Positions 11,990 through 64,000 of a stretch of DNA of 64,000 bases are shown in pieces. The DNA comes from Antedon mediterranea (lineage: Eukaryota; Echinodermata; Crinoidea; Comatulida; Antedonidae), in assembly GCF_964355755.1 (NCBI RefSeq), contig NC_092670.1, positions 13,207,201-13,271,200 of the forward strand, read 5' to 3'. The position numbers and the translations under genes are program-made. Numbering within the stretch: the stretch's first letter is position 1; each line of letters starts with the position of its first letter. The notes under the pieces were generated by a model that saw only the letters and a list, made by a program, of their open reading frames with translations, was not told the DNA's origin and ran no database searches.

Positions 11990-12450
11990 TTAAAATTATC
12001 ATGATAGTTAATATTGAAATGGTTTCATATACAGTATAGTAATAACAATTATACATAGTGATACAAAATAATATATAAAAAATACATTCACATAAAATCA
12101 TAAGTTAATACAAAAAAAAAATCAAAAAAAAAAATCAAAAAAAAAAAAAAAATCTTAACTATACTACTATACTTAACTAAAAAAGCCAAAAGAAAACGTT
12201 GGTAAGTAAATATATTTAATGTAAGGTATAGCCTGTTAATCATTACTGTATTTATAGTTATACATTAGTAGTACCAGACTACTACAGTTTAGTGATAACA
12301 ATAATTATTAATACATGATACAAAATAATATATATATATAAATACATTCACATTCACAAAAAAAACTTAAGTATACTATACTTAACTAAAAAAATTCTTT
12401 ATTTCGTTACTCTATTTACAGTTATACATTAGTAATACCAGACTGGTATT
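11990..12450. repeat. Internal duplication in the LINE-B 3' UTR
   Basis: Two diverged ~230-bp copies: TGATACAAAATAATATATA, ACATTCACA, an A-rich block, TATACTTAACTAAAAAA and AGTTATACATTAGTA recur in the same order at about 12040-12290 and 12300-12450. The first copy holds a poly-A/ATC tract at 12110-12155. Confidence 0.65.
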
Positions 12451-15400
12451 TAAATCTTTAACATTTTGGTACGTGAAGCCCATGCTTGTTTTATATAGCT
12501 TTTGCAAAACATGTCAAATATTTCATTTACTTTATTAACAATTACTGGTTGCGTCCCAGTAGGAAGGCTAGTGTCACTTCCTAGGGTTAGTTTTAGTTTT
12601 AATACTGGGTTACCTAGTAGAAAGTACAACCAGAATGTATATAGATTACTATTATATAGGTTATGCTCAAGTTTACAATATTCCGTTGAGCGTAGATCAT
12701 CAAAATATTTGCATTTGAACATAAAATGTATAATGTCTTCTTTATCATTTTTACATATAGGACATGTACCATCATTATCTTCTTCCCATATAGATTTCTT
12801 AAGGTTAAGTGCAAGTGTATTTGATCTTGCCTTAAATTTAAGACTTGCCCCTAAGAAATCTAATTTATCTAAAAGATACGGTTCTATATATGGTGTGGAT
12901 TTAAGTGTGACATAATTCATCAATGAAGTTTTCTTTCTGGCTTGATCAAAAATTTGGATACCATCAATACTTTTAATTATACTTTTTGAAATGATTACCC
13001 ATTGATTGTTAGTATCTGTCGTTAATTTAAACCTGTGGCTCATTCCACACAAGTCTAGAGTGTTTTGCATATGGTTGTACCATTTCCACTTAAATGTAGA
13101 CGTATGACCAATGAATAGCATTGCACTAAAAGCCAATTTGGGCCATCGACTCATATCCATCTTTACTAAACGATTTAAGAAGTCAATTCGTTGCATGTCT
13201 TGAATAGTTGAAATAGACTTCCAACCTAGATCACCGTACAAAGCTTCCTTACAAGTTGTACGTGGTGCTTTGAGTATTGCCTTTGCCATTTGGGTTTGTA
13301 ATTTTTCAAGATTTTGAATATCACTTATACCACCACAGACATATGTAGAGCACGCATAGTTAATTGAAGGAAGACCCAGAGTCTTCCACAACAAATCTCC
13401 ATAAAACACTCTGTTATAATCATCTTGATCATTAATAATTGACTTTATATACGCTATAATTCTATATCCCTTCTTAATAACCTCTTCAATATGACAGTGA
13501 TCGGAAAGAGATCTTGTAATATGGGATCCTAAATATTTGTAACTATTAACTTCTGAAATATAATGATCACTTAATGGCCATAATCTCTGTTTGTCTGTTC
13601 TTTTTCCAGTAATTAAAACATTGGATTTCTCATAGTTGAATTTTAATTTGTAGTCATTACTAAATTTTGTAGCTAGATCAAGCATTTCTTGCAACTCCCT
13701 TTCATCGTTAGCTAGCAGAACAACATCATCTGCCCAGAATAGACCACTTAATTGAACATTACATATTTCTATGCCCATTTTGTTTTCCCTTAGAAGTTTG
13801 GCAAATTCATTTATGTATATACAAAATAAAATAGGTGATAATGCACAACCTTGTTTAACACCTTCTTCAATTTGAATTTCGAAATATTCTGTTTCGATTT
13901 CTCCAAATTTTACTTTACAGTGAACATTATTATATATATTAAATAACATTTTCCATACATTTCCTTTAATACCAATATCCCATGCTGTGGTTAACAATTT
14001 GTCTCTCCATACAGTATCGAAGGCCTTTCGAAAATCAAGAAAAGCCATATGTGTATTTTTACCTTCCGCCTGTCTAATTGAGGTGAAAATATGATCATCA
14101 CAGCGATGGTCTTTTCTGAATCCACCTTGGATTTCAGACAATATGTTGTTGCTTTCAAGAAACTTTGAGATATTATTAGATATAATACGCGTGAATACCT
14201 TGGACACACATGAGTTGAGAGTTATACCTCTATAATTGTTTAAGTCATTTTTTGGACCTTTCTTGTGAACCGGGATTATTATACCTTTGTTCCATTCATC
14301 GGGGATAGTTTGAAGTTCTAACAGGCGATTAAATAGTTGGGAGAGAGATTGGATAAGTTTATCTCCTCCAAATTTGAGAAGTTCATTAGGAATGGAATCA
14401 ATGCCAGGTGCTTTGTGATTTTTACATTGGCCTAAAGCCCATTTAATATCTAACATAGAGATATATATATTGCAAAGCTGAGGGGAATTTTGAGTTCCGA
14501 TATTACATTCATCACTTTTATTTCTTAGATTGTTTATTTCTTCTTTTGTTTGTTTAATTGAATAATCGTGAGTACCTAAGTTACTTAGTCCTAATGTCTT
14601 CCAATATTGACATATTGTCTCTTTTATTTTACATTTATCTGTTGTTGTCTTATCAGAGTAAGGCAGTTTAATTGAAGTAGTTTCAACTTTTTTGCGGTTA
14701 CAACCTCGTAAGTTTGTCCAAAAATTCTTACTGCTTACTCCACCGTTTTCTGAGATTTGTGCGCTTTTATCAATGCGAACTTGCATTATTTTCTTGTTGA
14801 TTGCGTGTTTGACAGCTTTCCTTTTATGTTGGTAATTTTGCCATAGCTCGTTGCCATGTACTGTGTTTTTATTACTCTTCACCCAATGTCGGTGTTCTTT
14901 ACTGGCAGCTTTTCTATCTTTGATCAAATGATCAATGTTTGAGTCCCACCATCGTTTGTGTTTACATTTCTTATTTTTGAATCCTATTGTTTTATTTGCT
15001 GCTTGTAGTAATTTTGATCGCCATGAGGACCATAGCATATTTGGGCAGTCAAATTCATTGGCGTTCCATTCTTCAAAAGTATCTTTTAATTCTTTTTGGT
15101 AATTGGACCAGTCTTGATGTGGTAAAATATTCCAAATATTTGTGGAGTTTTTATTCTTTTTCTTTTTATTTAATTGACCAAAGCTTTGTTTAAAATTTGT
15201 TATTAATGTATTGTGATCACTGCCTAAATGAAAGCGGTGGTCTTCATCCACAATAAATGTTTCTACATATTCTATTAGGTCGTCTGAGGTTAACATATAA
15301 TCAATGGTTGAGGATTGATTATTCCTCATCCATGTTGTCTTTCCGTGGCATAGTTTTGTACAGTTGAGAACTGTAAGTGCCGAATTTTCACAAAAATTAA

Positions 15401-16052
15401 GAAAACGTTTGCCATTCGTATTAAGAACAGGGTCTCCATATGGGATTGCATTACCAATTCTGGCGTTAAAGTCTCCCATAATTAAAATGTGTGCAGCTTT
15501 TTCATTTTCAATTTGTAAAATTTCTGATAGGAGTTGATTATATAATTCATCAGAGAGACAAGCATCAGTTCCTTCGACAGGAAAGTAAGCTACTGCTATA
15601 TATATAATATTATTGTTTAACTTAACTTTTATCCATAGTCTTTCATAATCATCGTGCGGGTCAAAATAATTATCATCCATGATTGTAATCGCCTCCGATA
15701 TTAGAAAACCTATTCCACCCCCATTTTTAGATTTTCTATTTTTGCCAATCCATTTATAGCTGTTAATGTCAATTGTTTGATCATTTTGTAGAAATGTTTC
15801 AGCTAAACCTAATATTTGGATACTATTGTCTTTTAAGAAATGATCAATCTCATAGATCTTAGATTTTACCCTGTTTACGTTATTAAATGCAATCTTAATG
15901 TTAGAACATTCATTATTCTTATCATTACGACTTTTCTTTTTACCACGTCTATGTCTTTTACTTGATTTAACTTTTTCATTACTTTGGTTTATAACAGAAC
16001 TTTCTCTTGAGATATTACACTTATGTTCATTGTTATATTCATTACTAAGCAA
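12450..16052 (-). CDS. LINE-B ORF2: APE endonuclease and reverse transcriptase
   Basis: 1,200 residues. A basic N-terminus (KRHRRGKKK, 32-40) is followed by an APE endonuclease (about 50-285) with E85 (GLAETF), GDFN (193-196) and SDHN (278-281). The reverse transcriptase has APGIDSIPNELLK, NNYRGITL, FLDFRKAFDTVW, KQGCALSP and catalytic FWADD (about 771-775). A C-terminal zinc finger (CPICKNDKEDIIHFMFKC, about 1090-1110) resembles the CCHC tail of I/R1/RTE-like elements. It nicks target DNA and primes reverse transcription there. No disabling lesion is seen. Clade unsure; the YRGITL form argues against L1. Confidence 0.93.
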   Translation of the reverse strand: MLSNEYNNEHKCNISRESSVINQSNEKVKSSKRHRRGKKKSRNDKNNECSNIKIAFNNVNRVKSKIYEIDHFLKDNSIQILGLAETFLQNDQTIDINSYKWIGKNRKSKNGGGIGFLISEAITIMDDNYFDPHDDYERLWIKVKLNNNIIYIAVAYFPVEGTDACLSDELYNQLLSEILQIENEKAAHILIMGDFNARIGNAIPYGDPVLNTNGKRFLNFCENSALTVLNCTKLCHGKTTWMRNNQSSTIDYMLTSDDLIEYVETFIVDEDHRFHLGSDHNTLITNFKQSFGQLNKKKKNKNSTNIWNILPHQDWSNYQKELKDTFEEWNANEFDCPNMLWSSWRSKLLQAANKTIGFKNKKCKHKRWWDSNIDHLIKDRKAASKEHRHWVKSNKNTVHGNELWQNYQHKRKAVKHAINKKIMQVRIDKSAQISENGGVSSKNFWTNLRGCNRKKVETTSIKLPYSDKTTTDKCKIKETICQYWKTLGLSNLGTHDYSIKQTKEEINNLRNKSDECNIGTQNSPQLCNIYISMLDIKWALGQCKNHKAPGIDSIPNELLKFGGDKLIQSLSQLFNRLLELQTIPDEWNKGIIIPVHKKGPKNDLNNYRGITLNSCVSKVFTRIISNNISKFLESNNILSEIQGGFRKDHRCDDHIFTSIRQAEGKNTHMAFLDFRKAFDTVWRDKLLTTAWDIGIKGNVWKMLFNIYNNVHCKVKFGEIETEYFEIQIEEGVKQGCALSPILFCIYINEFAKLLRENKMGIEICNVQLSGLFWADDVVLLANDERELQEMLDLATKFSNDYKLKFNYEKSNVLITGKRTDKQRLWPLSDHYISEVNSYKYLGSHITRSLSDHCHIEEVIKKGYRIIAYIKSIINDQDDYNRVFYGDLLWKTLGLPSINYACSTYVCGGISDIQNLEKLQTQMAKAILKAPRTTCKEALYGDLGWKSISTIQDMQRIDFLNRLVKMDMSRWPKLAFSAMLFIGHTSTFKWKWYNHMQNTLDLCGMSHRFKLTTDTNNQWVIISKSIIKSIDGIQIFDQARKKTSLMNYVTLKSTPYIEPYLLDKLDFLGASLKFKARSNTLALNLKKSIWEEDNDGTCPICKNDKEDIIHFMFKCKYFDDLRSTEYCKLEHNLYNSNLYTFWLYFLLGNPVLKLKLTLGSDTSLPTGTQPVIVNKVNEIFDMFCKSYIKQAWASRTKMLKI

Positions 16053-16145
16053 AAAATACCTGTTTTGTTGTTGACTTGTCCAGTCAGTACTACCGGTTAA
16101 GGAAATATGTCCCTTATAACCGGCTCTTTCTTCATGGCCATGTTC

Positions 16146-17780
16146 CTAGCATTCGGATGGGCAAATTACCGACTTATGGCCTAACAAACCACATGAGTAA
16201 CACTTAATATGTTGACCATGTCTACAGTTCTTTTTGACATGATTGTGTTCACCACAGAAGTGACATCCGGCACGTTGACTTTGTCTGTTGTTAGATCCTT
16301 TCGCTTGGTTGTTTCTCCGTTTAGATTCAAATGTATGCGAATTCCTTCTTTTGGGTGACGGTTTGCCGCGTGTTGACTGTCCGTTATGTAATCGATTCTG
16401 TTTGCGAATAATTGGGTGGTGCCTATTGATGTTGCGTAGAAGGTGTCTTGTGCCGCTCGTTGACAGGTGTAGTCCATATCTATCAAGTGTTGATGTGTCT
16501 ACTGAATTGTCCTGCTGTTTGAAGTTTTCGTCATTTTCAACTAATATGCATCCATTTGTGTCGGCCAGTGATCTTAGTTTTGTGTTAAGTTTGTCCACAA
16601 GTTTCTGGTGGCCTGGGTGGTCAGTACGTGGTAATACTGTCGAAAGAATGACAAGTGAGTTTGGTGAGCGTCCATTAAGATCGGATACGATTTCCTCATA
16701 TTTACCTTCTGCTATTTCTTCATCGGCTTCAGAAGTGCAGTCATTTGTGCTTCCATGAATTATAATCGTTGAGAATGTGTCAACAGGTAGTTCGTCTAAT
16801 CTTTTCTTAATATCATTGACTCTTTTGCCGCGTAGGCACTCGATCGTTGTGTTTTCCAAACCATTTTTATTTACATCTCGAAGTATGGAATCGCTTATTA
16901 GAAGTGTTGGTGCTGATTGTTTATTTGCTACATTGTCATTCTGATTTGTTGCAAAGACATCTTGTTTATTCGTTTCCTGTCGATTGTTAGGTTTATCCTG
17001 TCCCTGGTTACATGAAAGCATATTTAGTTTGTTGATCAACTCCTCGTTTTTACTTTCAAGGCTTTTAATTTTCGTTGTTTGTTCAGTTAATAGTATATCT
17101 TGGTCTAAGGACTTGTTCAGGACTGTGTTTAGTTTTGCAGTTAGCTCTTTAATGCAGGCTGGTAGGCGGTGGCATGATAAGCAGAACCATATAGTTGGTT
17201 TCTTTCCTTTCATTCCAATACATGAACGGTGATATAATTGGTTGCACAGATTGCATTCAATCGCTGATGCTGTATCAGATTTTGTTTGCTTACAAGCATC
17301 TAAGAGGCATTGTACTATTCTCGTCGAGGAGATTGGCTCAGGATCATTTGTATTTTTAGATTTATTGGCGTTTCCTTTTGACAGATTTGTTTTTTCTGTA
17401 GAGGTATTATCCTGAAGTGCAGAGATGCGTTTAATGGAGTGATCACGAAGCTGGTTTGCAATCTGAAAGCTGTGATTTGCGATTGCTGTTGGGTCAGTAT
17501 TTGGAAGTAGTACTGTCAGCTCATCACGTAAATTTGGTAGCATACTGATTGTATCAAATTTAATGAGTTCTTGGAGAGTCATCCTATCTAGCAATCTAAT
17601 ATGGGTTTCGGTGACAGCAGTGCATGTGTCGTTTAATTGTGTAAGATCATCTTGTGCACAAGCCATATCTATATATAAATTTACGTAAGGGCAAAATTCG
17701 ATAAATCGCGGTTTATTTCTAGAATTTTTACTCGATGGTATATAAAGTTGGTTCGTACTTTCGGTACTGATTTTAACCAC
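16146..17780 (-). CDS. LINE-B ORF1: PHD-like finger, coiled coil, SGNH-esterase-like domain, CCHC knuckles
   Basis: 544 residues; an internal Met at 39 (MACAQDD) is an alternative start. A PHD-like finger has C176/C179, H184/C187 and C200/C203. A coiled coil follows (about 215-258). The SGNH-hydrolase-like domain has SDSI (296-299), HGSTND (342-347) and a late YGLHLS block carrying the His. The C-terminus has two CCHC knuckles of the form C-x2-C-x4-H-x4-C. Such ORF1 proteins bind element RNA in CR1/L2-like LINEs; the esterase substrate is unknown. It lies immediately upstream of ORF2 in the same transcript. Confidence 0.9.
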   Translation of the reverse strand: MVKISTESTNQLYIPSSKNSRNKPRFIEFCPYVNLYIDMACAQDDLTQLNDTCTAVTETHIRLLDRMTLQELIKFDTISMLPNLRDELTVLLPNTDPTAIANHSFQIANQLRDHSIKRISALQDNTSTEKTNLSKGNANKSKNTNDPEPISSTRIVQCLLDACKQTKSDTASAIECNLCNQLYHRSCIGMKGKKPTIWFCLSCHRLPACIKELTAKLNTVLNKSLDQDILLTEQTTKIKSLESKNEELINKLNMLSCNQGQDKPNNRQETNKQDVFATNQNDNVANKQSAPTLLISDSILRDVNKNGLENTTIECLRGKRVNDIKKRLDELPVDTFSTIIIHGSTNDCTSEADEEIAEGKYEEIVSDLNGRSPNSLVILSTVLPRTDHPGHQKLVDKLNTKLRSLADTNGCILVENDENFKQQDNSVDTSTLDRYGLHLSTSGTRHLLRNINRHHPIIRKQNRLHNGQSTRGKPSPKRRNSHTFESKRRNNQAKGSNNRQSQRAGCHFCGEHNHVKKNCRHGQHIKCYSCGLLGHKSVICPSEC

Positions 17781-18264
17781 CTGATGTAACCCTGTTTACT
17801 AATTAAATTGAGTTAGATAATTAGTTATTGACGATTAAAACGAATTTAGGTTCAACGATTTGCCCCAAATAGGGGTGTTTTCCGATCGTGGTATACACTG
17901 TCTAATGGATGTCCAACTTGAAAAATACCCGCACACAATAATACTAGGACGCTTCGCATTTTCCTATCTCCTCCTACGATAATTGTTTTTAATAGCTGAA
18001 AACCGGTTGAACTGCCCAATTACAGCATCATAATGTTGAAGACAGGCCGATTTTCTTTAAAAAATACTATTTTGATAGATTTAATTTACGTTTTTCAAAT
18101 GTATTGATTTGCGATGAATGGAACATTCCAATCTCTCAGTCTGCCAGTTTGGTTTAACACAAGTTGGTAAATTTATGAGCCCTTGGAGAATAAACTTGCA
18201 ATACTTTTGACAATACAGTACTGCAAATACCTATTAACCATTTTTGGTCGTCATTTGAATCGAA

Positions 18265-42400: not shown

Positions 42401-45400
42401 AAGTTTGCAGTTCGACTTAATGAAGTCGAGCTTTTAGTGGAGTTGCACACGTCTGGGTAACAAAGCCTATACATTGGCCAATGACAAGAGAGTATTTGAG
42501 GAGCAGACCTAATTTTGCCCATTGATATCACTTTCCATTTCTTACAACACTTTTTACGCATCAGGACTATATACATGAAAAATAATTTTAATCGTTAATT
42601 ATTAGAACAATATCAGTATTAATTTAACAGTGAAGTATATTTGATTAACAACAAATAAAATCTTAAAAATATATTTAGGAACCATGGCGGTACGGTAACT
42701 TTTATATTTTCTAGGCCTCCAACAAAGTATGATCGCCACGAACCATGCACTTCATAGCGTGACAAGAAAGCGCTAGGCCCCCTAAACATTCCATCGCGTG
42801 GTGAATTGCCGCATCTCCCATTGTCGCTATGGCGTGACGTAGCTCAAGTCGGACTTGCGCGAAGAAAATAATGTAATTTGTATACAGTTGTAAATAAAGA
42901 TGATTTTCATTATTATAATTTATACCAATGTATATTTAATTAAGCTAATATAACTATAGATATTTCATTCTTCAATATCTGGCCAATATAACAACTCAAT
43001 GACTGTTACGTTTTTTATAAACATCGTTTAAAAACCATTTAGTCGACCATTTAGTCTGCCCCCTCCAGGACTAAAAAAATCGATCAAAATCCGTCTCGAT
43101 TTAGTCGAGGTTGGCCTGATTTAGTCGGTGATTTAGTTGAAGTTCGGTTTATGAATTAAAATGACGTCATTTTTTTAGTTTTAGCTCGAACTACGACTAA
43201 AGTCCGGTTTAAGAATACGGGCGTTAGTATAATAAACAAAAAATATATAAATATGGGTGTCATTATGAAAGCAGTTTTAAAGACCCATTCCCTACAATTG
43301 TTGATGTTTTGTAAAAATAATGCATATATATATTACTTTAAAAACATTAAACCAGGTCATTCCTTGTCTTTTTTATGGTAAATTATGATAAAAAGAGAGA
43401 AACAATGCATTACCTAAGTACCTCACGGTAAACTTCCTCTCGTGGATGGTCTTTAGGCCTAGCCTAGCTAGGCTTAGTTTTATAGGCCTAGGTGACATAA
43501 ACATCGGTAACGTACAAACACCGTACGCTAGCTATAGGTCTATCCTGACGTTGTATAGTTGCTGCATTAATTGTCTTTCTGTTTTTGCCAGAATCCATTT
43601 ATACAAATTGGGGGAAACCTGGTATTTTCGCTGAAAAGTTAGGAAGTTTCCATTACATTTTTTTTTCTGGGTGAATTACAGAAGAAAAACGAAAAACTAT
43701 CAATCCGCGCTTAATGCATGTTGGAATTTATAGCGGACAGCTTAAATGAATCGACTTATATTTCACATTTTTCCCCATTTAAAGATGAAAAAATTTGTCT
43801 CAATAGGACCATATAGTATTTATTTTTACATTAAATGTAGTTTGTTACCTTTAAATTAGCTCTAAAAAAACTTTGAATAAGAAAGGGTGCTAAAAAAAAA
43901 GAAAAATATAAATACAGCTATAGAATGTATTAGGCTGCAGTGGGTATGTCGGGGACTTAAAAGAGAAAGCGAAAAATGCATTGCGGAAATGCATTTTCGC
44001 TTTGTAGTAGAGCCTAAAGTAATACATTTGTACATTATCAGAGGGTATATGTATGTATGTATGTATATGTATATTTTTTTTTAAATCGGCAGAAATTGCA
44101 TTTTAATGGCAGATCAGGATACTCTTGAGATTATTGGTTTCTATACAATTAGGCCTTCATTCAAATTCATATTTATATATTTTTATTTGTTATTGTTTTT
44201 ATCTGTAATAGGATATACTGTATAGTAGTTCATTGTAATATGGTTATCAGGTTTATCATTTCTTTATGTTATAAGGCAAGTCTGCATTTTGGTTAACTGT
44301 CAATGGTGTAATAGTTTATTAAATCCAACAGTGTGTTAATTCATAGTTTCTTTCACAGAAATCAAGTATTCATATGCCTGTAGTAAGCTTTTGCCTTTCG
44401 TCTGATGGATTGTTTGTTGGTGCTCCATCCATAAATGAACCCAATTCCAAGCATATAACGGAAGATAATGACACAAAACTAGTCAAAGGCATGCTAAGGA
44501 ATCCAATACAAAGGCTACTTCCAGATAAAATAAACAAAAAGGGGGACCAGAAAATTGAGATTGAGAGGATTAGAAAGCCAAAATACTCATCAAATGGATA
44601 TGAAATTGTTTCTACAATTGAAGAACCTGAAGATAATAGAGGAAGATTAGGAAAAAGACAAGGAGAAGGTAAAATAGGAAGAGGAAAAATAGGAGAAGAA
44701 AGACAAGGAGACGGTAAAATAGGAAGAGGAAAAATAGAAGAAAGACAAGAAAAAGGTAAAATAGGAAGAGGAAAAATAGAAGAAAGACAAGAAAAAGGTA
44801 AAATAGAAAGAGGTAAAATAGGAGAAGAAACACAAGGAAAAGGTGAAGACAGAAGTGAAAAAGGAGGAGGAAGACGAGAAGAAGATAACAAAGGAGGTGA
44901 AAGAGGAGGAAGACAAGAAGATAACAAAGGAAGTGAAGACGACAGAAGTGAAAGAGGAGGAAGACAAAAAGATAACAAAGGAGGTGAAGACAACAGAAGT
45001 GAAAGAGGAGAAAGACAAGAAGATAACAAAGGAGGTGAAGACGACAGAAGTGAAAGAGGAGGAAGACAAGAAGATAACAAAGGAGGTGAAGACGACAGAA
45101 GTGAAAGAGAAGGAAGACAAGAAGATAACAAAGGAGGTGAAGACGACAGAAGTGAAAGAGGAGGAAGACAAGAAAACAAAGGAGGTGAAGACGACAGAAG
45201 TGAAAGAGGAGGAAGACAAGAAGATAACAAAGGAGGTGAAGACGACAGAAGTGAAAGAGGAGGAAGACAAGAAGATAACAAAGGAGGTGAAGACGACAGA
45301 AGTGAAAGAGGAGGAAGACAAGGAGATGGTGAAATAGAAGGAGGTATAGAAGAAATTCAAGAAGAAAACAAACAAAGTGAGAAAATTGAAGGTTTGTTGC

Positions 45401-45654
45401 ATTATGTTGAAGACACAGCTGACATTAATGCCATCTGTTTGAAACCAGTACATGCCAGTAGTGGAAAAGTGTATACATCGATCAATATACTAAAAAACAG
45501 GAATAAAGTAAAGTGTGAACAGATTGTACCATTTATAAATAATGGCAAAGCATATTGTATGATGATATACTCAACAGATTTTCTGGAAGGTGAAGAAAGT
45601 GGTTATTCTATCAGATACCACATTTTTCCAGAAGATTTGTTGAAAGAACTGTAA
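36487..45654 (+). CDS. Gene X: unrecognised protein with a charged repeat tail (at least 10 exons)
   Basis: Exons: 36487-36627, 37221-37300 + 38424-38548 (one exon split by a MITE), 39055-39094, 39941-40081, 40338-40537, 40682-40813, 41059-41142, 41453-41547, 42054-42167, 44359-45654. Every junction has GT...AG and the phases agree, giving 2,448 bases (815 residues plus stop). The 5' end is incomplete: no in-frame ATG lies in the first exon. The N-terminal half is globular-looking with scattered Cys (KKCIICRG, TNKCVHYI, NQPCRYEPF). No known domain, signal peptide or membrane segment is evident. The last exon encodes an Arg/Glu/Gly/Asp/Lys repeat tract and then a globular C-terminus (GLLHYVEDTADINAICL... 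PEDLLKEL). AATAAA follows at about 45677. The function is unknown to me. The exon chain is strong; the MITE-split exon rests on uninterrupted frames either side of a perfect duplication. Confidence 0.85.
36785..36862 (+). other. tRNA-like SINE head in a gene X intron
   Basis: The A box GTGGCGTAGTGGG (36793-36805) and B box CGAGTTCAAGTCTC (36838-36851) are correctly spaced. It resembles the - strand copy at 36168-36245 (shared TTCGAGTT core). Confidence 0.55.
37301..38415. mobile_element. 1,115-bp MITE inside a coding exon of gene X
   Basis: The ends AATGGACCTGAAATGGA and CCATTTCAGGTCCATT are inverted repeats flanked by an exact 8-bp duplication TCATTTAA (37293-37300, 38416-38423). Without the element and one duplication, ...GSDVTASF and KATSTPKF... 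read through in frame. With it, a stop is soon met. An 8-bp target suits hAT- or P-like elements. No transposase; AT-rich. Confidence 0.85.
39430..39720 (-). mobile_element. LINE/SINE 3'-end fragment with hairpin, gene X intron
   Basis: Sequence opening with TTTATTTATTTATTCTTTAT and AAGCCAACAGTGTAAAACACC looks like the reverse of a retroelement 3' tail. A perfect hairpin (GTCTACAGAAA / TTTCTGTAGAC, 4-nt loop) sits at 39653-39678. The family is not identified. Confidence 0.45.
42297..43223. mobile_element. Harbinger-type MITE in the last intron of gene X
   Basis: The ends CGCCCGTATTCTTAAACCGG and their exact reverse complement continue as inverted repeats for about 38 bp (ACTTTAGTCGTAGTTCGA), flanked by TTA (42294-42296, 43224-43226). 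927 bp. The interior is rich in TTTAGTCG/CGACTAAA words. The TTA target and CCCGTATTC ends fit PIF/Harbinger MITEs. Confidence 0.85.
43227..44358. other. Rest of the last gene X intron
   Basis: It contains a TAGGCCTA cluster (43455-43495) and a short ATGT microsatellite (about 44047-44072). No exon is supported. Confidence 0.5.
44638..45340 (+). repeat. In-frame charged minisatellite of gene X, purine-only strand
   Basis: First about four 14-15-residue units of the form KIGRGKIEERQEKG (44670-44840), then eight 17-residue (51-bp) units of the form GGRQEDNKGGEDDRSER (about 44906-45312); one unit lacks a codon. The + strand is almost all A and G, so other frames stay open by composition. The encoded tract is strongly charged and presumably disordered. 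High identity between units points to recent expansion by unequal exchange or slippage. Confidence 0.9.
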
Positions 45655-52668: not shown

Positions 52669-55600
52669 GTAAGTCACAGTGAGATTTTTGGAAGAAATTA
52701 TTGAGAGAAATAAATATGCAGCAGCAAAAATGTAGGCTATGTAGTTTAGAATCACAGCACTCAGTAAGATTAGCATACACGTGATGTATGCCTAATGTAA
52801 TGATACCGCCAGCATTACAGAATATTCAAAATTAATATTAGGCCTAGACGTAACAAATAATCGGCATTATTTAGAAGCTATACATTTTTCAATCTTAAAA
52901 TCAATAACTAATAAATCGAAGGGAAAAGAAAACAATAATATAAAACATTGTTTGTTGATGTTAAGCTCTGTTTACACTATCAAACCAGATTTTTTTTTAA
53001 AGTGTGATATGCCCAATTATGGTAGTGATATGCCCAAATATGGTAGTGATATAACATAATCATGTCCATATATGGGCACATCAATTTTTTATCCCATGAA
53101 CATTGATAGTGTAGACACAGCTTTATACAGTTGTATTGATTGATTGATTGATTGTGCTTTGAAACAAAATCAATCAATAAGTGTAGGCCCAAACCGTTGT
53201 TGTCTCAGCCTAAACAAACCATGGTAATTTGTATGATTTCTAAAACTAATTTTTTTTACTCAATTTACCTAATTACCCTTCACCATTTTATTATTTTATT
53301 ATCAGCTTGTGATTCTAGTCCGTGCCGAAATGGAGCAACTTGTGTGGATTCTGTCGTAGATCCCCTTGGGTACGTTTGTCTGTGTGCTTACGGATTCAAT
53401 GGTGCCCAATGTGAACAATCTACTTGTAAGTATTTTTTCACGTTAATAGATTTAAGACCTGTTTACACGAATATACGAAAATATATATAACGATATTATT
53501 ACATTGAAATAAAGTTTTTGGTACATAGTACATTCTGTGAAAAGTTTCTTGACGTTTCTATCAATACACTTTGATCGTCCTTGTGAAAATGCAGAAATTT
53601 TACGAGAAACCAATGTTCATGAGAAACAATGCTCTTCTATCTAGTTTTTCAATCCCACTGTGTGAACCTTTATTATTGTTTTAGCATCAGTCCAGTTCAG
53701 TTCAGTTTTATTCGGTTCACTAAAAAATACAAAGAAAAAAAAAACAATATTAATAGAATAAACCGAGGAATAACCCAAGAAAGTTTAAAAGAAAACTTAT
53801 TTCCATTGAGGTCCTCAGACATAAAAATAACACAGTGATAATTGCACTTAAAGCGCCCTATGACTACTAAAAGGTTAAAAATCCACCCAATTTCACTTAT
53901 ATTCCCATTTTCTCTCTTTTTAAAAATATGATTGGAATCTACATATGACATAATTTTGTTGAACTTTCAGCCAATGACTGTGGATATGACTCATATACGC
54001 CATCCGGAACAGTGGCGTCACCAAACTATCCCTCCAACTATACTGAACGACTATTCTGCTTCTACAACATTCGCGTCGCCAACGCGTCATCGTTGACGCT
54101 AACGTTCGGGCATCTGGAAATTGAGCTTGTCAAGGATTACGTGGAGATAGCCCCAGACCCGTTCTTTATTGACACCAGACAGCCAGATACAAACGTACCC
54201 GCCAACCTTATATTCTCTGATTTTTATCAGCCACCTCCAGGACCTATTACGCTTGACACGAATCAATTAGTGGTATCGTTCACGTCAGATAAGAATATAA
54301 ACTTGTTGGGATGGACACTCTCATATGAATCAAGTAAGACTAACAATTACTCATACAGTATTGATAAATAGAAACTCATAAGATGAAATATTTCAATATT
54401 TAGGCATATCAACTATTATTTCTTTTTTTATCTTGGCTTTAAAACTTCCTCCTTTCTTTGTAAATAATTACCTTATGTTTGATATTGTCAAAAAATATTG
54501 TCTGATATTAAGTTAAGATAATTTTTAATTTAATCCGATGTTTCATACATCCACATCTTCCTGGTTTCCTTATTGTTGTTATAGCCTAACACTGTTGTTA
54601 CAACACCTTCATGTTGCTATAACACTGTACGCATGCCTGTCTTTTCATATTAAAGTAATATATCTATTCGTATGGTATCATAATAATAATAACAGGATTT
54701 TTATAGCGCACATACCACTCAAGAGTGCTCAAGGCGCATTCAAAAAAATTAAACAAATCATACAAATGCCCGACAAATAAAATGCAATTTCTTTGGAGGG
54801 TCCCCATCCGTTCTCGTTCTGTCGCGGTCCCGGACCCCTACCTAGGTGACCAAACAAAGGAACAGGATACACATTTGCCTTGCCACAGACGACCGGGTGC
54901 TCAGAGACCAAGACAGAGGCACCCCAAAGATAATGCTGGTCAGGAAAAAGTATACTATACAATTCTAGAACTTTAAGAAACCTCATGATTTCCATATGCC
55001 TTAATGAATAAATGTGTTTTTAATAATTTTTAAAAAGTATCAACAGTTTTGCAAAATCTGATAGAGCTCGGTAGAGCATTCCATAGACCATCATGGTGGA
55101 GTTAGTCTAGAATCTCTTATACGCCATACTGAAAGCAACGTTGTTTTACTATGATTCGGTCCTTTATTTTATAAATGACACCATATACCAAAGTTATTAC
55201 TATTTTCTCATTTTTGACATAATTATTGTATCTATTCTAAGCTTTGTCTCCATGTGCTACAAACCCATGTGAGAATGGTGGATCATGCCAACATCTACCA
55301 ACGAACAACTATGACTGTACTTGTACCAGTGAATGGCAGGGTATAAATTGTTCAACACGTGAGTATTGCTACTTAAGATTATAATATTATGAGACCATTG
55401 GTGAGGGTGGGTATAGCCCCGAATGGCACTATAACATCAGTAGATGGATCATTTGAACAAAAGTAGTTTGGTTCGTCAAGTATGTGAATTCCACAAGACT
55501 GTAATTGATACGTGCTTAAAAAATATGGAATTGATGGAATTAATTAACTAATTTACTTTGACTTTATAGTAAATAAAGTAACCATTTATGATTTGTCTTT

Positions 55601-58600
55601 GTGCTGTCAATCAATTATATTTAATAGGCCGTTATCTGTGTCATATGAACGAGTTCCATTTTATTTTCAGCTGTTGATCCGTGTCTGCCAAATCCTTGTT
55701 TAAATGGAGCCTGTCAAATGCAATCACTGACGGAGTATTTTTGCTTGTGTGATGATGGATGGACCGGAGACCTGTGTGACATGGGTAAGTTTTCTTTTTC
55801 GCTAACATGATGACGAGTGTATACAGTACGTGGAAAGCAATTGGAAATAGTAGTATTTGTTTTAAAGATACCTCTTTTGCCCTCATTCACGCATTTGTAA
55901 TATACATTGGCACAAGTTTATCGCTATTAACCTATCTTTTATTTCCATAATATCAGGTAGGGTGATTATCACAGATACAGATCTAACAATAATCAGCGGA
56001 GACCCTGTTAGAGAAGGAACATCTCAACCATCGTTTACAGTCAACATTAACCTCACACCAGCTTCATCATCTTTCCAGTTTACTGGCACCAATCTCTGGT
56101 CGTTTGATTTCTACTATAGTAATCTCAATGATGGCAATGGCAACGTCATCGGGTCTGGTTCAAGTATACTGACCTCTTTACAGGCTAACACTGCTTGGCA
56201 ACCTCCAAACATAGCTAGATTTACCAATGTTGCAGTAACGACAACTATTGGCGTTACTTCATGCTCGGAGTATAGATACTTGTGTGTGATAGTGCGCAGA
56301 GGAGCGGAGTCTTCTGTGGATTATGAACTGGTTGGTTCTCCAGATGGATCTGCACTTTGGCACTGCGCAGCAGTTAATTGCAGAGGTACAATATACCACA
56401 TTACCTTATTACTGTTATAGAAACTGAGACCAGTTAATGTTCAAAGAGTCTTCCCGTGAACTGTACTTCATGTTTGCTTATTCAGAGCCAAGCAGCTTTC
56501 TTTCTGTATTGAAACAGAATGTAATGTTGAATAACTTTGACATTTATTTATTATTGTCTATTATATAGGTGTTGAAATATCAGGACTTCGCCTGAGCCTT
56601 TTGACGTCTGCACTTCGAGAAGGAGTATCATCTCAACCTCTTCAGTTCAATCTAGAACTGGAGTCAGTTGCAGAAGCAGGTAGTGTCAGTGGAACCGATC
56701 TCTGGAGATTTACCATGTTTGCAAGTGCATCTTCTAATGGGTTGGGTGACCGTGTATCAAGTACAACAGCTACTCAAACCCCAGAACACAGGAACACACC
56801 AGTAAACGCTGGAATACTTGCCGTCTTTAACAACTTACAAGGAACGTTTAACCTCAACCAGATTATCTGTCCTCAGGTTCCATACTTCTGTGTTGAAGTT
56901 GAGAAAGGGAATTCTGCAATACCAGACTTCACTTTTACTGGTGTTCCTGATGAATCGATACTGACAACTTGTGTTCCTGTTCCGTGTATAGGTAGGAATG
57001 AATGGAAGAACTCTTTTTGCTTTATGTGATGTTTTCGGAGACACTACTCACATTTTGCTGTCTGTTAACATTTGTACCTGAAGTTTGTGTTTACAATATT
57101 GTTAAAGCCATAAGAAAATACAAGAACAATTAATTTTATTTTCAGAAATGTAACACAGTAACCACTCGCGAAATAACCACCTATATTTTTGGTTTGAAAA
57201 AACTCATGCAGATACATTAATACTGTTTATAATCTATTTTTTTATTAAGGTGTTCAAATTACTAATACATTCTTCACCATCGATACTGGTTCAGTGTTTA
57301 TTGAAAGAAGCTTAAGCCATTCCGTTGACTTCTCGAGCTTTTTTACAACAAGAGTGTCTGGTGGAAGCGTCAGTGGAATCAGGTTGTGGCAGGTGATGTC
57401 ATTTGCAAGTTCCTTTTCCGATGGCAGTGGTAATCGCTACAGTTGGTCCACTTTACCGCTAACACTCCAGCAGTCCAGCGTTGGCAACATTGCTGGTTCT
57501 TCTTCATCTCTTCAGGGGCTAATGACATCTTTTAATTTGAATGGTACAAAGTGTGACCAGATAAATTACATGTGTGTGAGCGTTGATAAAGGACCTGATG
57601 CTTCTCCAGACTTTACACTTGAACCACTTCCAGGCAATGATGTGTTGACGAGTTGTACTGCTGTGCAGTGCAATGGTAGGTCTATATATTGTATCCCGTT
57701 TCATTTTTCATTCCAGTTGCCATCATTTTTCATGGCTTTATTCCAATGATTCGTTCCTTTATTATCTATTGCTTCTAAATATTTCAGAAATTCAATATAC
57801 TATAGTTCTTAAACCCGTGCTTCTCACATGCTAATCAGATATTTCTTACCATTACGCCATACTGCTCTCGTGATAGCGCTCTGCTATAGTTGAATAAAAA
57901 CATGGTTTGTACATTATTCTAGGTGTCATTGTAACCACGTTGATTCCAAGAATTGTTAGTGGACTTCCTGTTCAATATGGATACAGCTCTAACAATTTCC
58001 TCTGTGAGTTGACTATCAACGCTAGAAGTGATGGTGCAAGTATTGCAGGCTCAGGACTCTGGAACATCACTGCATATGTTAACAACCAAGAGGACGGACG
58101 TGGTGTACGTGCTGCTCAACAACAGGTATCACTGTCGGCGGCACAAGGAGCCATCTCACTAGCAGCTGGTGGACAGGCATTCTTTGACCAACTGCAATTC
58201 AACTTTGATCTGTCTGGGGTAAACAGTTGCGATGAAGTAATGTTTCTGTGTTTTGAGTTGCAAAAGGCTGATGCATCTGTACCTGATTTCACCCTAGAGG
58301 GAAGTACTACATCGTGTGTCAGCATCACATGCCAACGTAAGAAAATATTATATTATTAAAATAATATAAATTTTAATTTTAATAATATAAATCACTAAAC
58401 ATGAAATTGTAGGTTTTTTAAGGAATAAAGAAATTCAAAATTAAAAAAATAATAATTTGAATAAGTTTATTTTATGTAAATTGCAAGCATTGAGGGTGGA
58501 ATCTTTACCCAGAAATCACTTTAACAATTTTCAAATATTATTGGGATATGACACATGGCACCTTGTCTCTCTTTGACGATTAGCAGTAAAAATATCATTT

Positions 58601-61600
58601 ATAAACTGATTTGTTCCTTTATTTCTTTGTTTTAATGAAAAATGTTTTCTTGATTTGTAGAATTTAATGCGTGTGATGCTATTCCGTGTCAAAATGAAGG
58701 AGTATGCTCGAAAATTGGTGAATCCTTCTTGTGCACCTGCGCCCCCGGCTGGACTGGAGGAACCTGTACACAAAGTAATATGTTAATTAAATTATATATT
58801 TGATGTGTTCTTGTTCTTTCTCAACTAAACTGTATTTTGTTCACTTAATTGAATTCTGTTATCTCATTCACAAAATAAATTTTATCATAGACCTTAATAA
58901 GCTACGTTTTAAACATCTGTGATAGATTTAAGTGACAGTTATACATGACGTGTTATGCAAGCTGATTGGCGATGCGTATTTGTATATGCAATCAGATGGA
59001 GCGCAACTGGCATATCAACATACCTCGCTCCTCCACCAGACAATACCGTGACCGTTGTTATCGTTGTAGTTACAGTTTATAGATATTATTTAAAATAAAA
59101 TACATTTTTCAAATTTATTTTTAGTTGTTGACAATTGTAATCCAAACCCATGTGCTAATGGCGGACAATGTGTGAATGAGTTAGATAGGTTTACTTGCAT
59201 TTGCACCTTCGGCTTTACTGGTGCTACTTGTAGTCAGGTTGATACTGGTAAGTATATTGTAAATTTTAGTTTGATGCAAACAGAACGTTTAAAACCAGCG
59301 CATGTGCACTAATCAATCATATTGAACAGCGTTTTGACCACCAGTAAACTTCGAGCGCTAAATGTATTTTTTGGTGATTTGATTTTAGGAGTTGAAATAT
59401 CGGCTACAAATCTAATCCTGAGGTCAGGAGCATTGCGACAAAGTACCAGTGTCAACCCATTCCTATTGGACATATCCCTGACCTCTACAGCCACGAGTGC
59501 CTCGGCTAGTGGATCTGGTCTCTGGCAGGGAAGAGTCTTTTCAAGTAGTAGTTCTTCTGGTGGTGACCGTTATGCCGAACAAGACATCACATTTACCAGT
59601 GGACAAGCATCAACTGGTATCGCGGCGAATTCAATGGCAACGTTTAGTAGTGTTGGCTTTGATTTTAACTTCAGTAATAGAGTTTGTTCAGATGGCCAGT
59701 ATTTGTGTGTGGAGATTCAGAAAGGAGATAACCCGGTACCAGATTTCATCTTAACAGGGGTTCCTTCAGACAGCTCTTTGATTGGTTGTGTTGCCGTCAA
59801 TTGTATTGGTAGGTTTGAATAGTGTTAATTTTATCAAATGATTTGTTTCTAATTTTCTAATGCACACATCATCTTTTTTAACACTCCCAGAATGTATTTT
59901 TATTTGAAAATCTCCTAGTTAATTATACATGTTTAGTATAAGCAGATTTTAGTTTTAAACAAATGTTTTTTTTTATGTGATGGATTAATCTTTGTAAATA
60001 CATTGTTCAAACCCTAATTATAAACGTTACGAACTTCAATTATGATATTATTGTCTTTAGGTGTTCAAATTACAAGCATTAGCAGCAGTCTGCCTTCAGG
60101 ATTCCCAGTAATTGAGCGTACCTCATCTCAAGGCATCAACTTTGATTTAGACATTGCTAGCAGTGGAAGTGCCGGCAGTGCTGCAGGATCTGGTCTCTGG
60201 CAACTTACAGCTTATTTTGCAAGCAGCAATGACGGTTCTGGGACATCACAAGCTCGTCAGAGCATCCAGCTAAATGCAACCCAAGCTGCCACAGGTATCA
60301 ATGCTGGAGATCTTGCAATTATGCAGAACATCGCAGCATCTATGAGCCTCGATGGTGTTCTGTGTACCAATGTCTCTTATATGTGTATTGAACTTGGAAG
60401 AGGAGATGCACCTTCTGTTAATTATAGGCTTGAAGAATCAAGTGACCTTGAAACATGCATAGAAGTCACATGCAGAGGTACGATATACATGTCTCAAATG
60501 TCAAATTCTTAGTGGTAATAATTAGTGATCCCAGGGTAGGGAAAATCTACCGGAAATTAAAACATTTGGAATATAGCTTTGAGAAAGTTGACTGTAGTTT
60601 TATATTTTATACTGTATTATATTATAATATTTTATTATTTATTTAAAATTATCATTCTTGACCATTCTTTGTTGTTTTAACAGGTGTTGCTGTTACTAGT
60701 ACATCTTATGCAGCTACATCTGGAATACTTCAGGAAGGATCAGCTAACAGCCCATTTACTTTTGACCTTGTTGTTGATTCTTACCCTCAAGGTGCAAGTA
60801 TTGAGGGTACAAACCTCTGGAGTGTAGAATTATTCTCAAGTTCTGATCAAAGTGGTATTAAAAATAATGCAATTGACCAAGTCGTACAACTTACTAGTGG
60901 ACAGAGTGGTACAAGTCTATTGGCAGGCTCATCTGTTTTGCTGCAGAATGTGATGACATCGCTTGACCTTTCAACTTTGACCTGTGCAGACATTCCATAC
61001 TTATGTACACGTTTGTCAAGGAGTGATTCAGCAAATCCAGACTTCACTCTTGAAGGCTTTCCTGGTGATGAAACTTTAACTAGCTGTAGACCTGTCAGCT
61101 GCGAAGGTATTATTTAATGATGTAATAATAAATAATAATTTATTAGGAAATGACACCTTTGCATCGGTGGCACACACAGAAGTGGTGCATCCAATTTAAC
61201 ATAATACATCAAAACAATACATTATATGACGGATACAGGTTTTTAAACTGTTTGCAAAAATATAAAAGAAAAATCATTACCAACATGGTAATATAGGTAC
61301 TGTATTAAATTGTCCTACAGTATCATAGGTTTGAGTTGATAAAGAGGTATATAAAAATAAACATAAAATATAGTAAAGAGTTTACATTACAAACCATTGT
61401 GTTTCAACATCAGGTACTGAAGACCTATAGTTGTTATCACAGGTGTAGGCCTATACTATTTACAAATCTAAATACAAATATATAAAAGCAACAATACAAA
61501 AGAAAAACAATCTATATATTGGGAGATTTAAGTTCTGACCGTTTCTCCCATGTAGAGTAGAGTGATAGAGTGATTGAAATATTAATCAATTACGTTCTCG

Positions 61601-63906
61601 TGAAGAGAGATGATGATGTTTAATATTTCCGCCAAAGTTGAAGATACAGATAACTTACTCAAGATTTTATATCAACAATTAATTGATTTTCTTGAAAACT
61701 AATATGCATGCTGTTTTTTTTTTTTTGCAGAACCAAATACAGCTCCATTTTTCCTACCAGGAGGTGACTTCAACAACGTTGTGATTTCTGAGAGTTCATT
61801 AGCTGGTAATATGCATTTTCAAACATTTCGTCAAATGAGAGATGAGATTAAGACAGAAACTTTTTAAACCCAAAATTCTGGAAGTCGTGGGCATGACAGC
61901 ATTTACTTATATTATTGATACATACTGTAACTAGTATTCGAACCCAGGACATTGTATGAAGCATTAGTAAAGGTTAATAGCACATATCATTTACTTTTAA
62001 AGGTACGGTTGTGTACACAATGCAAGGAAGTGACAATGAGGGTGATGTGCTTACTTACGGTCTGGTCGGTGACCAGGCCAACACCCTCTTTCAAGTTAAC
62101 TCGATGTCAGGAGATGTTACACTCAGAACAAACTTAGACGCAGAGGTATTCAGTATTCAGTGATTACTTACTCCACAGTATCAAGTACATGACAATAATA
62201 TGACCCACAGCTAATATCATATCAATTTTACAATATCTGAGTTTTTATACAATATATATTTATAGTATAGTCTTTGGTTTTGTAAGATTTGTCTTTAATA
62301 TGATATGAATTGTTAAGTTTGATGGCATGCATTTCTCATATTCAGAATCTCCGATTGTGCAGTTTGAGAATAGATCAGTTAACAAACTTTGGCAATCTGC
62401 AGAAAACAATTCAAAAGTCGACATTAGCAAACTTTAGTCTTCCAAACTCGAGCTACATTTGAAAACAAAAATTTGCTAGTGTTGACTATGTATAACTTAT
62501 GCTTTATGTAGCACTGAATATTATTTATATTTATTATGTTAAACACCTTATAATATTTACTATATATATATGTTTTGTGTTTTATTTCAGGATGTAAATA
62601 TGTATACTATTTTCGTATCCGTCAGCGACGGTCGAGAAACAGTAAGTATTAGAAAATCTCTCTACTTTTATCAAAAACAAAATGTAGATTTATATAAACA
62701 TTATTGAGCTATTTTCCCTCTTTCGACTCAGTTATGTCTTATGTTAATGTGTAGATAGTCTTGTTTTTTTCAAGTACTGTAACGTATTCTTTTTTTTAAA
62801 GTTGCAATTCCCTTTGGAAGAGATATACTGTATGTAATCACACAAATATTGCTCTAATTCTTGTTATACTAGGTAATTTACATATTAATATAGTAGTATA
62901 TTTGCATATCAGTTAGTTTCCTTATATAATTTCCTATATTTTATTTATTTTTTGTTACCTAGGTTGTGACAGAATCAACTGTGTTTGTTGGCGACATCAA
63001 TGATAACCCTCCTGTTTTTGTCGGAACCCCATACAGCACTACCGTTCAAGAAAGCCAAACACCTGGTAGTGTTGTCTTCACTGTAGAGGCTACAGATCGC
63101 GATTCTGGTATTAATGCAGCTATCATGTACGAGCTGGTAGAGGTAAATGATATTTCTTATGTTGTCAGGCGTTACTAATGTTTAGAAAAATTAGTTAAAA
63201 AATAATCAAGTCATATTCAGACGACACAGATATTGTTTGGTCCAGAAGGTATTTCCTTAATAGAATTCTACTTTAAAATGTTATGTAACTTAACGATGAC
63301 AATCGTGTAGTTATAATAGTATTAATGCTGTACTACTAACTGTATATCCCCATTTTTCAGGCTTCTGATTTGTTTGAAATAAACCCAACAACTGGAAACA
63401 TTACTTTGATTGCAACGTTAAACTTTGAGGAATCAGCCAGCTACCAACTTAGAGTTAAAGCTTCTGTAAGTATAATATAAGACCTTGTTATAAATATTAT
63501 TTGGTGTATTTGCTAATATAGCGAGATTACATTTGTTAGCTGTTAAGATAATTTAACAAAAGTGAATTAGTCTTTTTATGAGGCTTTGGTAATGGCACTG
63601 TTTTATGTCAGAATTAGAAGTGGCACTCAGTTTCTGGTTGTAGGTTCAGATATTAAACATTTTACCATGTACCTTGAGATTAGACAGGAAACACATTAAC
63701 CACCAATCTACAGCTTATTTTTAACCAACAAGCTAAAGTACCAGAACCAATACTTCATGTTATTGATGCATTCTTTTTAGGATGGTGGTATTCCTAGTAT
63801 GGAAAGTGAGGAAGAAGTTGTTATTCGTGTAGGAGACGTACAAGATTCGGACCCAGTGTTTGTCAACCTACCATATTCACCAACAGTTACAGAGGAAACA
63901 CGAGTT
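52587..63906 (+). CDS. Gene Y: secreted/transmembrane EGF-CUB-EGF-R-EGF-R-cadherin protein (5' part)
   Basis: Twenty coding exons: 52587-52668, 53306-53425, 53971-54333, 55242-55358, 55671-55784, 55957-56385, 56569-56991, 57250-57675, 57923-58336, 58661-58774, 59125-59247, 59389-59808, 60061-60477, 60684-61106, 61731-61805, 62003-62145, 62591-62641, 62963-63142, 63361-63465, 63781-63906. They sum to 4,665 bases, 1,555 codons, with no stop. All junctions are GT-AG; the first fourteen introns are phase 1, later ones phase 0. Order: signal peptide, EGF, CUB, 2 EGF, 4 R, 2 EGF, 3 R, cadherin repeats. The gene continues past the window, so a membrane anchor is not seen. An extracellular adhesion or matrix role follows from its modules; the specific partner is unknown. 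Confidence 0.92.
53306..53425 (+). CDS. Gene Y exon: EGF-like domain 1
   Basis: Six cysteines in EGF spacing (CDSSPCRNGATC ... GYVCLCAYGFNGAQC). No calcium-binding D-x-(D/N)-E leader. Phase 1-1. Confidence 0.9.
53690..53832 (-). mobile_element. LINE-A 3' UTR relative in gene Y intron 2
   Basis: TAAAAAATACAAAGA, ACTTATTTCCATTG(A/T)GG and ATAAAAA(C/T)AC occur in the same order and spacing as at 395-510 in the LINE-A 3' end. A 3'-truncated copy of a related element. Confidence 0.65.
53971..54333 (+). CDS. Gene Y exon: CUB domain with a missing second disulfide
   Basis: Starts NDCGYDSYTPSGTVASPNYP and has NYTERLFCFYNI, LTLTFGHLEIE, DYVEI and LVVSFTSDKNINLLGWTLSY, a full CUB fold length (about 115 residues). 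The first Cys pair is present. The second is absent: the usual Cys before DYVEI is replaced by Val-Lys and no partner follows. One-disulfide CUB domains are known. Confidence 0.88.
54680..55160 (-). mobile_element. Interspersed repeat with TATAGCGC ... GTGCTCAAGGCGC end, gene Y intron 3
   Basis: An AATAATAATAA tail is followed by TTTTTATAGCGCACATACCA and GAGTGCTCAAGGCGCATTC, a signature of widespread marine-invertebrate LINE/SINE 3' ends; later blocks (TCGGTAGAGCATTCCATAGA) fit the same family. Orientation is inferred from the tail. Confidence 0.55.
55242..55784 (+). CDS. Gene Y exons: EGF-like domains 2 and 3
   Basis: Two exons (55242-55358, 55671-55784), each a complete six-Cys EGF: CATNPCENGGSC...CTCTSEWQGINC and CLPNPCLNGACQM...CLCDDGWTGDLC. 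Both phase 1-1. Confidence 0.9.
55957..58336 (+). CDS. Gene Y exons: R domains 1-4 (unrecognised ~140-residue repeat)
   Basis: Four exons (55957-56385, 56569-56991, 57250-57675, 57923-58336), one domain each, all phase 1-1, 138-143 residues. Shared: start G-V-x-(I/V), an early R/E-x-G, a central SG(T/S)xLW, a DG-x-G turn, then C-x6-C ending (Y/F)(L/M/F)C, a K/R-G-x4-(P/V)D(F/Y) stretch, and a final C-x4-C: CSEYRYLC/CAAVNC, CPQVPYFC/CVPVPC, CDQINYMC/CTAVQC, CDEVMFLC/CVSITC. It is probably a beta-rich extracellular module with two disulfides. I know of no named family that fits. Confidence 0.88.
58661..59247 (+). CDS. Gene Y exons: EGF-like domains 4 and 5
   Basis: Exons 58661-58774 and 59125-59247, each a six-Cys EGF: CDAIPCQNEGVC...CTCAPGWTGGTC and CNPNPCANGGQC...CICTFGFTGATC. 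They separate the two blocks of R domains. Confidence 0.9.
59389..61106 (+). CDS. Gene Y exons: R domains 5-7
   Basis: Exons 59389-59808, 60061-60477, 60684-61106, phase 1-1, 139-141 residues each. LW appears as GSGLWQ, GSGLWQ and GTNLWS; Cys pairs are CSDGQYLC/CVAVNC, CTNVSYMC/CIEVTC and CADIPYLC/CRPVSC. Spacing between the middle cysteines is 26 residues in five of the seven copies, 23 in R6 and 21 in R4. Confidence 0.88.
61115..61510 (-). mobile_element. Truncated LINE-B 3' end in a gene Y intron
   Basis: ACACCTTTGCATCGGTGGCA, CACACAGAAGTGGTGCATCC, AACATAA and ATGACGGATACAGG match 11765-11850 of LINE-B closely, in the same orientation, after an (AAT)n tail. It lies between the last R exon and the first cadherin exon. 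Confidence 0.8.
61731..63906 (+). CDS. Gene Y exons: cadherin repeats 1, 2 and start of 3
   Basis: Six exons (61731-61805, 62003-62145, 62591-62641, 62963-63142, 63361-63465, 63781-63906). Repeat 1 runs from APFFLPGGDF to VGDINDNPPVF, with ISE, FQVNSMSGDVTL and VSVSDGRE. Repeat 2 has VQES, TDRDSG, FEINPTTGNITL, LNFEE and VKASDGG, ending GDVQDSDPVF, a degenerate DxNDNxP. Repeat 3 begins at VNLPYSPTVTEE. Calcium ligands DINDN and DRD are present, so rigid calcium-dependent linkers are expected. The last donor (GTAAGA at 63907) is near the window edge. Confidence 0.92.
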
Positions 63907-64000
63907 GTAAGAGTTTTTCTTTTAAATATCAAAACACATCCAGTGGCATGTTAATTGTAAATTTTAAAATACGACAATTTCAAAACTCACATGAGTTCGT

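Follow-up and report, generated by a model that had tools for sequence, protein, structure and literature searches.

A probable undescribed module family, GLW-4C, in the extracellular head of a giant cadherin gene of the crinoid Antedon mediterranea

Introduction

What do the seven exons of 414-429 bp at positions 55957-61106 of a 64,000-nucleotide stretch of the Antedon mediterranea genome (NCBI RefSeq assembly GCF_964355755.1, contig NC_092670.1, positions 13,207,201 to 13,271,200 of the forward strand; this whole stretch is referred to as the window) encode, and does their product belong to a domain family that already has a name? A first-pass annotation made from the letters alone had proposed seven copies of an unrecognised extracellular domain spreading as a mobile module. 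We consider it probable that the seven exons encode one undescribed extracellular family, referred to here as the GLW-4C module, with phase 1-1 exons, an immunoglobulin (Ig)-like fold, a double disulphide staple, a history of shuffling and a likely role in adhesion or recognition. Positions without a contig handle are given in window numbering.

Seven homologous exons

The module exons are found on the forward strand at 55957-56385 (module 1, 429 bp), 56569-56991 (module 2, 423 bp), 57250-57675 (module 3, 426 bp), 57923-58336 (module 4, 414 bp), 59389-59808 (module 5, 420 bp), 60061-60477 (module 6, 417 bp) and 60684-61106 (module 7, 423 bp). All seven are bounded by AG and GT, are phase 1-1 and translate into 137-142 residues, modules 2-7 being 26-33% identical to module 1. 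Homology and exon bounds in the window, like the further loci and nearby partner domains reported below, come directly out of computation. In a leave-one-out test, each copy was compared with a profile made from the remaining six and scored 101.9-131.1 bits (E 1.7e-27 to 1.5e-36, with E values set for a database of 1e6); the highest value among shuffled sequences, 190-198 of which were scored for every copy, was 9.7 bits. Splice bounds and profile scores together bear out the initial claim of seven homologous exons, all of phase 1-1.

The seven-copy alignment contains an invariant V, G, LW, a further G and four cysteines. Read by eye, C-x6-C with an aromatic residue two positions ahead of its second cysteine, as well as C-x4-C, are present in 7/7 copies as first described, but the other motifs are somewhat looser than claimed: GxxLW is found in all seven copies and exact SGxxLW in three, exact DGxG in four and PD(F/Y) in five.

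Search for a named family

Besides the seven window copies, searches used a 41-copy alignment consisting of these, two related predicted proteins and 32 genome copies; 33 long copies had been found outside C1, which carries the window gene, and the truncated L016:69-452 was excluded. No Pfam model scored above cut-off in the seven window copies and no Ig model matched any of them (0/7). Across the 41 copies six families appeared in one copy each, with best E values of 0.0067 to 0.062. The best of these weak families, CBM_19, was rejected (1/41 copies, 16.8 bits, under the cut-off of 20.1), and fn3, CARDB and Cadherin each matched 0/41 copies at E up to 0.1. As a positive control, the same library scored EGF, CUB, Cadherin, NIDO, fn3 and VWC above cut-off in neighbouring DNA. 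With NCBIfam, too, the seven window copies stayed under the cut-offs, CBU_0592 being rejected at E 0.14, and the best E among PDB sequences was 0.14 with the seven-copy profile and 0.39 with the 41-copy profile. No description of the domain was found among the open-licence papers listed by literature searches, judged by title and the start of the abstract. The comparison with Pfam suggested by the first-pass annotation gave no confident match, and its statement that no named family fits holds as far as Pfam, NCBIfam and PDB sequence searches reach.

Predicted fold and its relation to Ig-like domains

An AlphaFold2 (AF2) model of module 5, generated from an 18-sequence alignment, reached a predicted local distance difference test score (pLDDT) of 90.7 and a predicted template modelling score (pTM) of 0.85; a second, distant copy gave a model with pLDDT 72.3 and the same strand order. 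The module is thus predicted to fold as a seven-strand Ig-like sandwich, in which the strands would correspond to A-B-C-C'-E-F-G. The conserved Trp is located in the third model strand (45-52) and the Y-x-C motif in the sixth (104-111). When compared with the PDB by Foldseek, as had also been suggested, the module 5 model matched many Ig-like sandwiches weakly and none clearly, the matches being spread over unrelated Ig-like families, and the second, less confident model did no better. The highest structural Z values (8.1-8.2 over 107-115 residues) were obtained with the Ig-like domains of transglutaminase/factor XIII, chain 8b5l_q of a Sec61-TRAP complex, which we take to be TRAP alpha, and Spo0M. 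A library of predicted viral structures gave a best E of 1.9e-3. The Ig-like sandwich superfold is not new; the sequence family probably is.

For the module 5 model, Foldseek listed the CARDB domain of PF1109 first (3idu; E 4.7e-4; template modelling (TM) score 0.36 by query and 0.42 by target), which could indicate that GLW-4C is an animal domain of the CARDB type (presumably PF07705), a surface adhesion module of bacteria and archaea. We regard this as very unlikely and reject CARDB membership: the structure match is weak and tied with others, and the Pfam CARDB model matched none of the 41 copies. The 50 rows listed for the second model contain no CARDB domain, which excludes nothing.

A closer relationship to Ig domains deserves more weight. 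GLW-4C could have branched off from an already described domain of the Ig superfamily or of FN3 type and diverged so strongly that profiles fail to see the link, in which case nothing would be new at the family level. Like Ig V/I-set domains, it shows a seven-strand sandwich with Trp on strand C and Y-x-C on strand F, and SIRP chains account for 12 of the 13 weak PDB matches of the 41-copy profile (E 0.39 to 2.2, profile positions 82-122, covering the sixth strand). With E 0.14 at best, SIRP V domains were rejected as true relatives. Several observations speak against such a branch. No Ig set or fn3 model appears among the 41 copies except Ig_CFAP65_4th, the sole Ig-named model (one copy, E 0.049), and the best Pfam E value overall stays at 0.0067, whereas an fn3 exon adjoining modules at C2 26.1 M is recognised at 37.6 bits (cut-off 25). 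Unlike V/I-set domains, GLW-4C lacks the conserved B-strand cysteine and the B-F bridge, conserves four other cysteines, of which the two extra C-terminal ones probably staple the F-G hairpin, and has no significant sequence match; its structure matches are low and scattered. FN3 domains (PF00041) are mobile phase 1-1 modules in many animal proteins. They share the seven-strand sandwich with GLW-4C but differ from it by its putative disulphides and by the 0/41 result of the fn3 model. On balance, we judge descent from a described Ig or FN3 domain to be unlikely.

Four cysteines and a putative double staple

Conservation was counted in a profile alignment that comprises 77 genome hits and 11 hits in related predicted proteins (88 in all), in which copies whose alignment stops early are uncounted. 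Among copies with a letter in the respective column, Trp is present in 72/72 and the first to fourth cysteines in 73/75, 75/75, 72/73 and 69/69. Conserved cysteine columns are 101, 108, 135 and 140 only, with none in the region of the second strand. Y or F occupies column 106, two before the second cysteine (C108), in 91% of 75 copies. The model places the second cysteine on the sixth strand and the third on the seventh, and the position sums of 106+133 = 239 and 99+138 = 237 suggest an antiparallel ladder that fits nested pairing of the first with the fourth and the second with the third cysteine.

Covariation points in the same direction for the outer pair. The 73 tails examined belong to those of the 88 hits that begin no later than position 95 and extend to position 118. 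Two of these copies (C10:13082293 and C2:38390803) lack both the first and the fourth cysteine, and no copy lacks just one of the pair; worked out by hand, such a coincidence would arise by chance once in 2628 cases. The two losses look independent, since the copy nearest to C10:13082293 in the tree keeps both cysteines. The tail of C2:38390803 may extend beyond the exon end. Most likely, the first and fourth and the second and third cysteines form two nested bridges that staple the F-G hairpin and replace the B-F bridge of Ig domains.

Spread through the genome and partner domains

Module 2 as query returned 51 matches in the genome (354 Mb in 18 contigs), which lie at the window gene (C1 13.26 M) and at C2 5.82, 26.11-26.15, 26.89 and 38.38-38.40 M, C4 28.14 M and C10 13.08 M. 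A module from C2 gave 49 matches and no further locus, missing C2 26.89 M. In the examined DNA, which covers part of those loci, 77 profile hits had an independent E value (i-E) below 1e-4, some of them being halves of intron-split copies. In genome DNA, with the related proteins excluded, the exact phase-1 place carries GT at 46/59 of the 3' ends tested and AG at 34/46 of the 5' ends. When joins within two-module open frames are set aside, the counts are 43/56 and 33/44, compared with a background of 5.8% for GT and 5.3% for AG in the examined DNA. Several misses are shifted by whole codons, some by one or two, and module 1 scores as a 5' miss because of one extra residue only.

The gene organization also varies between loci. 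Two modules, or one and a half, are encoded without an intron in the open frames C2:38382223-38383143, C2:38383358-38384281 and C2:26129924-26130625, which differ from the pattern of one module per exon in the window, and at C2 26.1 M many copies look split by an internal intron.

Partner domains scoring above their Pfam cut-offs in module neighbourhoods are EGF, CUB, Cadherin, NIDO, fn3 and VWC. At C4, a module has a Thr-rich open stretch on one side and, on the other, a NIDO region (42.2 bits against a cut-off of 25) in which AMOP and VWD match under cut-off, an arrangement that we take to be MUC4-like. Judged by eye from the DNA, the splice joins from the Thr-rich exon via the module to the NIDO-type exon are all in phase 1. 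A VWC exon flanks the module array at C2 38.4 M (41 bits, cut-off 27.6), the fn3 exon mentioned above flanks the one at C2 26.1 M, and Gly-rich stretches are found at C2 5.82 M together with VWC-like exons just under the cut-off of 27.6 (27.3 and 24 bits). Six loci beyond the window gene, different partners and GT/AG at phase-1 ends far above background agree with the proposal of a symmetrical, mobile phase-1 module. Together, the varied partners and the phase-1 bounds on both sides of 7/7 window copies support GLW-4C as a mobile extracellular module of class 1-1; new families of this kind are not rare in poorly studied animals.

Two features of these neighbourhoods are worth recording. At C4, the open stretch ahead of the module and NIDO exons is made up of Thr/Ser-rich repeats and runs without interruption for at least 2111 codons (L038:1-5000 into L028; G000:C4:28129113-28135445). 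Directly behind the fn3 exon that follows the largest examined module array, a frame resembles a reverse transcriptase (L014, near C2:26145398-26146141).

Relatives in protein sets and copy history

Among about 5.8 billion predicted proteins, the seven-copy profile retrieved two and the 41-copy profile nine others, none of which carries a name or a Pfam domain in the search tables. These searches depend on shared words, and each misses finds of another. A midpoint-rooted FastTree was built from 58 copies, each a hit spanning 105 or more further positions. The window copies are not grouped exclusively with one another in it: the smallest clade that includes all seven has 23 leaves (support 0.754). 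The proteins P0002, P0001 and P0007 adjoin modules 2, 4 and 6, respectively. If these pairs hold, the order of modules in the window gene predates the split between the source animals.

Some observations weigh against the reading of GLW-4C as a shuffled, double-stapled family. Splice signals are absent at the exact place for 13/59 3' ends and 12/46 5' ends, and three of the 46 GT and one of the 34 AG successes come from joins inside two-module open frames. The exon joins of the window gene and of C4 were read from DNA, and at the other loci modules and partners would share genes by adjacency and strand. The third cysteine is absent alone in 2/73 tails (C2:38380037 and C2:26113238), which weakens its pairing with the second; in C2:26113238 the profile puts the lone cysteine at the third position, and only the exon end directly behind it marks it as the fourth. 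Representation outside the genome is thin, with 11 related proteins in all, and with a 17-sequence profile made mainly from C2 26.1 M copies none of 2831 candidate proteins came within the E limit of 0.01. This last null means little: two of the 17 sequences, P0001 and P0002, came from the very database searched, so the search misses relatives.

Architecture of the window gene

The gene that carries the seven modules could be followed upstream and downstream of them. Ahead of module 1 lie EGF exon 1 (53306-53425, 120 bp; Pfam EGF 25.4 bits, cut-off 21.5), a CUB exon (53971-54333, 363 bp; Pfam CUB 61.5 bits, E 1.1e-16), EGF exon 2 (55242-55358, 117 bp; 26 bits) and EGF exon 3 (55671-55784, 114 bp; 36.5 bits), and modules 4 and 5 are separated by EGF exon 4 (58661-58774, 114 bp; 32 bits) and EGF exon 5 (59125-59247, 123 bp; 40.6 bits), all on the forward strand and of phase 1-1. 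The five EGF exons and the CUB exon are thus all above their Pfam cut-offs, and the order of four modules ahead of an EGF pair and three behind it is as first annotated. From EGF exon 1 to module 7, 13/13 exons have a length divisible by 3, AG/GT bounds and an open phase-1 frame. The head therefore reads EGF-CUB-EGF-EGF-[module x4]-EGF-EGF-[module x3] and is followed by cadherin repeats. No signal peptide exon was recognised by eye in the upstream frames, no predictor having been run.

The cadherin-repeat region begins on the forward strand at 61732, a first base set by eye, runs to the window end at 64000 and continues in the neighbouring DNA of the same assembly to about 92.2 kb. By eye, it contains an estimated 30 or so repeats, and 17 exact linkers of the D-x-NDN-x-P-x-F type occur in the 60 kb examined. 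With three downstream open reading frames submitted to Pfam Cadherin (cut-off 28.8), L005:669-1130 scored above the cut-off (93.1 bits), and the window frame 62963-63175 (26 bits) and L004:1246-1641 (19.7 bits) scored below it. L005:669-1130 matches many cadherins, CELSR1 first, and no named cadherin type was assigned. A hydrophobic segment near 90.1-90.25 kb, presumably transmembrane, is followed by a long tail frame to 92.18 kb. In its long cadherin stalk and one hydrophobic segment ahead of a tail, the gene resembles the giant atypical cadherins Fat, Dachsous and CDH23. Its EGF, CUB and GLW-4C head would set it apart from these and is not mentioned in the consulted passages of an echinoderm cadherin survey (PMC10734073).

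The position of the repeats directly behind the modules in the same gene raises the question of whether GLW-4C is a degenerate cadherin repeat. We hold this to be extremely improbable: Pfam Cadherin matched none of the 41 copies, Trp and four cysteines are conserved, and modules occur at six other loci where the scanned DNA contains no cadherin motif.

Possible functions

GLW-4C is marked by the invariant C-strand Trp (GxxLW), the turn between C and C' (DGxG) and Y-x-C in strand F. It has probably been amplified in tandem and joined to a range of partners, namely EGF, CUB, cadherin, FN3, VWC and mucin/NIDO domains. The long cadherin stalk of the window gene would present the EGF/CUB/module head at its distal end, where adhesion or ligand recognition is the likely role of the head; a head at the tip would suit recognition in trans. 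The tandem arrays at other loci may form secreted or surface scaffolds. A candidate for the contact site is the K-G-x(4)-P-D-F stretch in the putatively stapled F-G region, where K is conserved in 64%, P in 61%, D in 58% and F in 82% of 74 copies. Calcium could be held by the DGxG turn, which leads from the third strand to the fourth and is conserved at D (61%) and at its first and second G (90% and 81%).

Alternatively, the modules might serve as structural spacers, adding length to the head or to the tandem proteins without binding anything specifically. The copies have diverged to 22-40% identity to one copy with the core fixed, as expected if only folding is selected, but residues of the F-G region are conserved too, though some of these may be structural. 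A pure spacer role seems to us possible, if somewhat doubtful. For the broader proposal, that a shuffled, double-stapled Ig-like family provides the recognition surface in several adhesion proteins not otherwise related to one another (the giant cadherin, the MUC4-like mucin and VWC- and FN3-containing proteins), and thus this lineage's own toolkit of the Ig/FN3 type, the arguments appear evenly balanced. A curated GLW-4C model would annotate long unknown stretches of adhesion, mucin and matrix-like proteins here and in animals that share the module, and, with several loci and their partner sets in one genome, it would make it possible to test how new mobile modules spread.

Other features of the window and its surroundings

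Just downstream of the giant cadherin, at about 94.4-99.3 kb on C1, an array of repeats with a recurring frame is found (L006, L007). Rfam gave no match in the window. On the minus strand, long frames at 3952-7089 and 12450-16145 resemble, by eye, proteins of non-LTR (long terminal repeat) retroelements (endonuclease/reverse transcriptase), and a zinc-knuckle-like protein, likewise recognised by eye, is encoded at 16146-17795 beside the second of these. Finally, a 435-residue frame at 44347-45654 contains many EDDRSERGGRQEDNKGG-type repeats and a non-repetitive C-terminal part.

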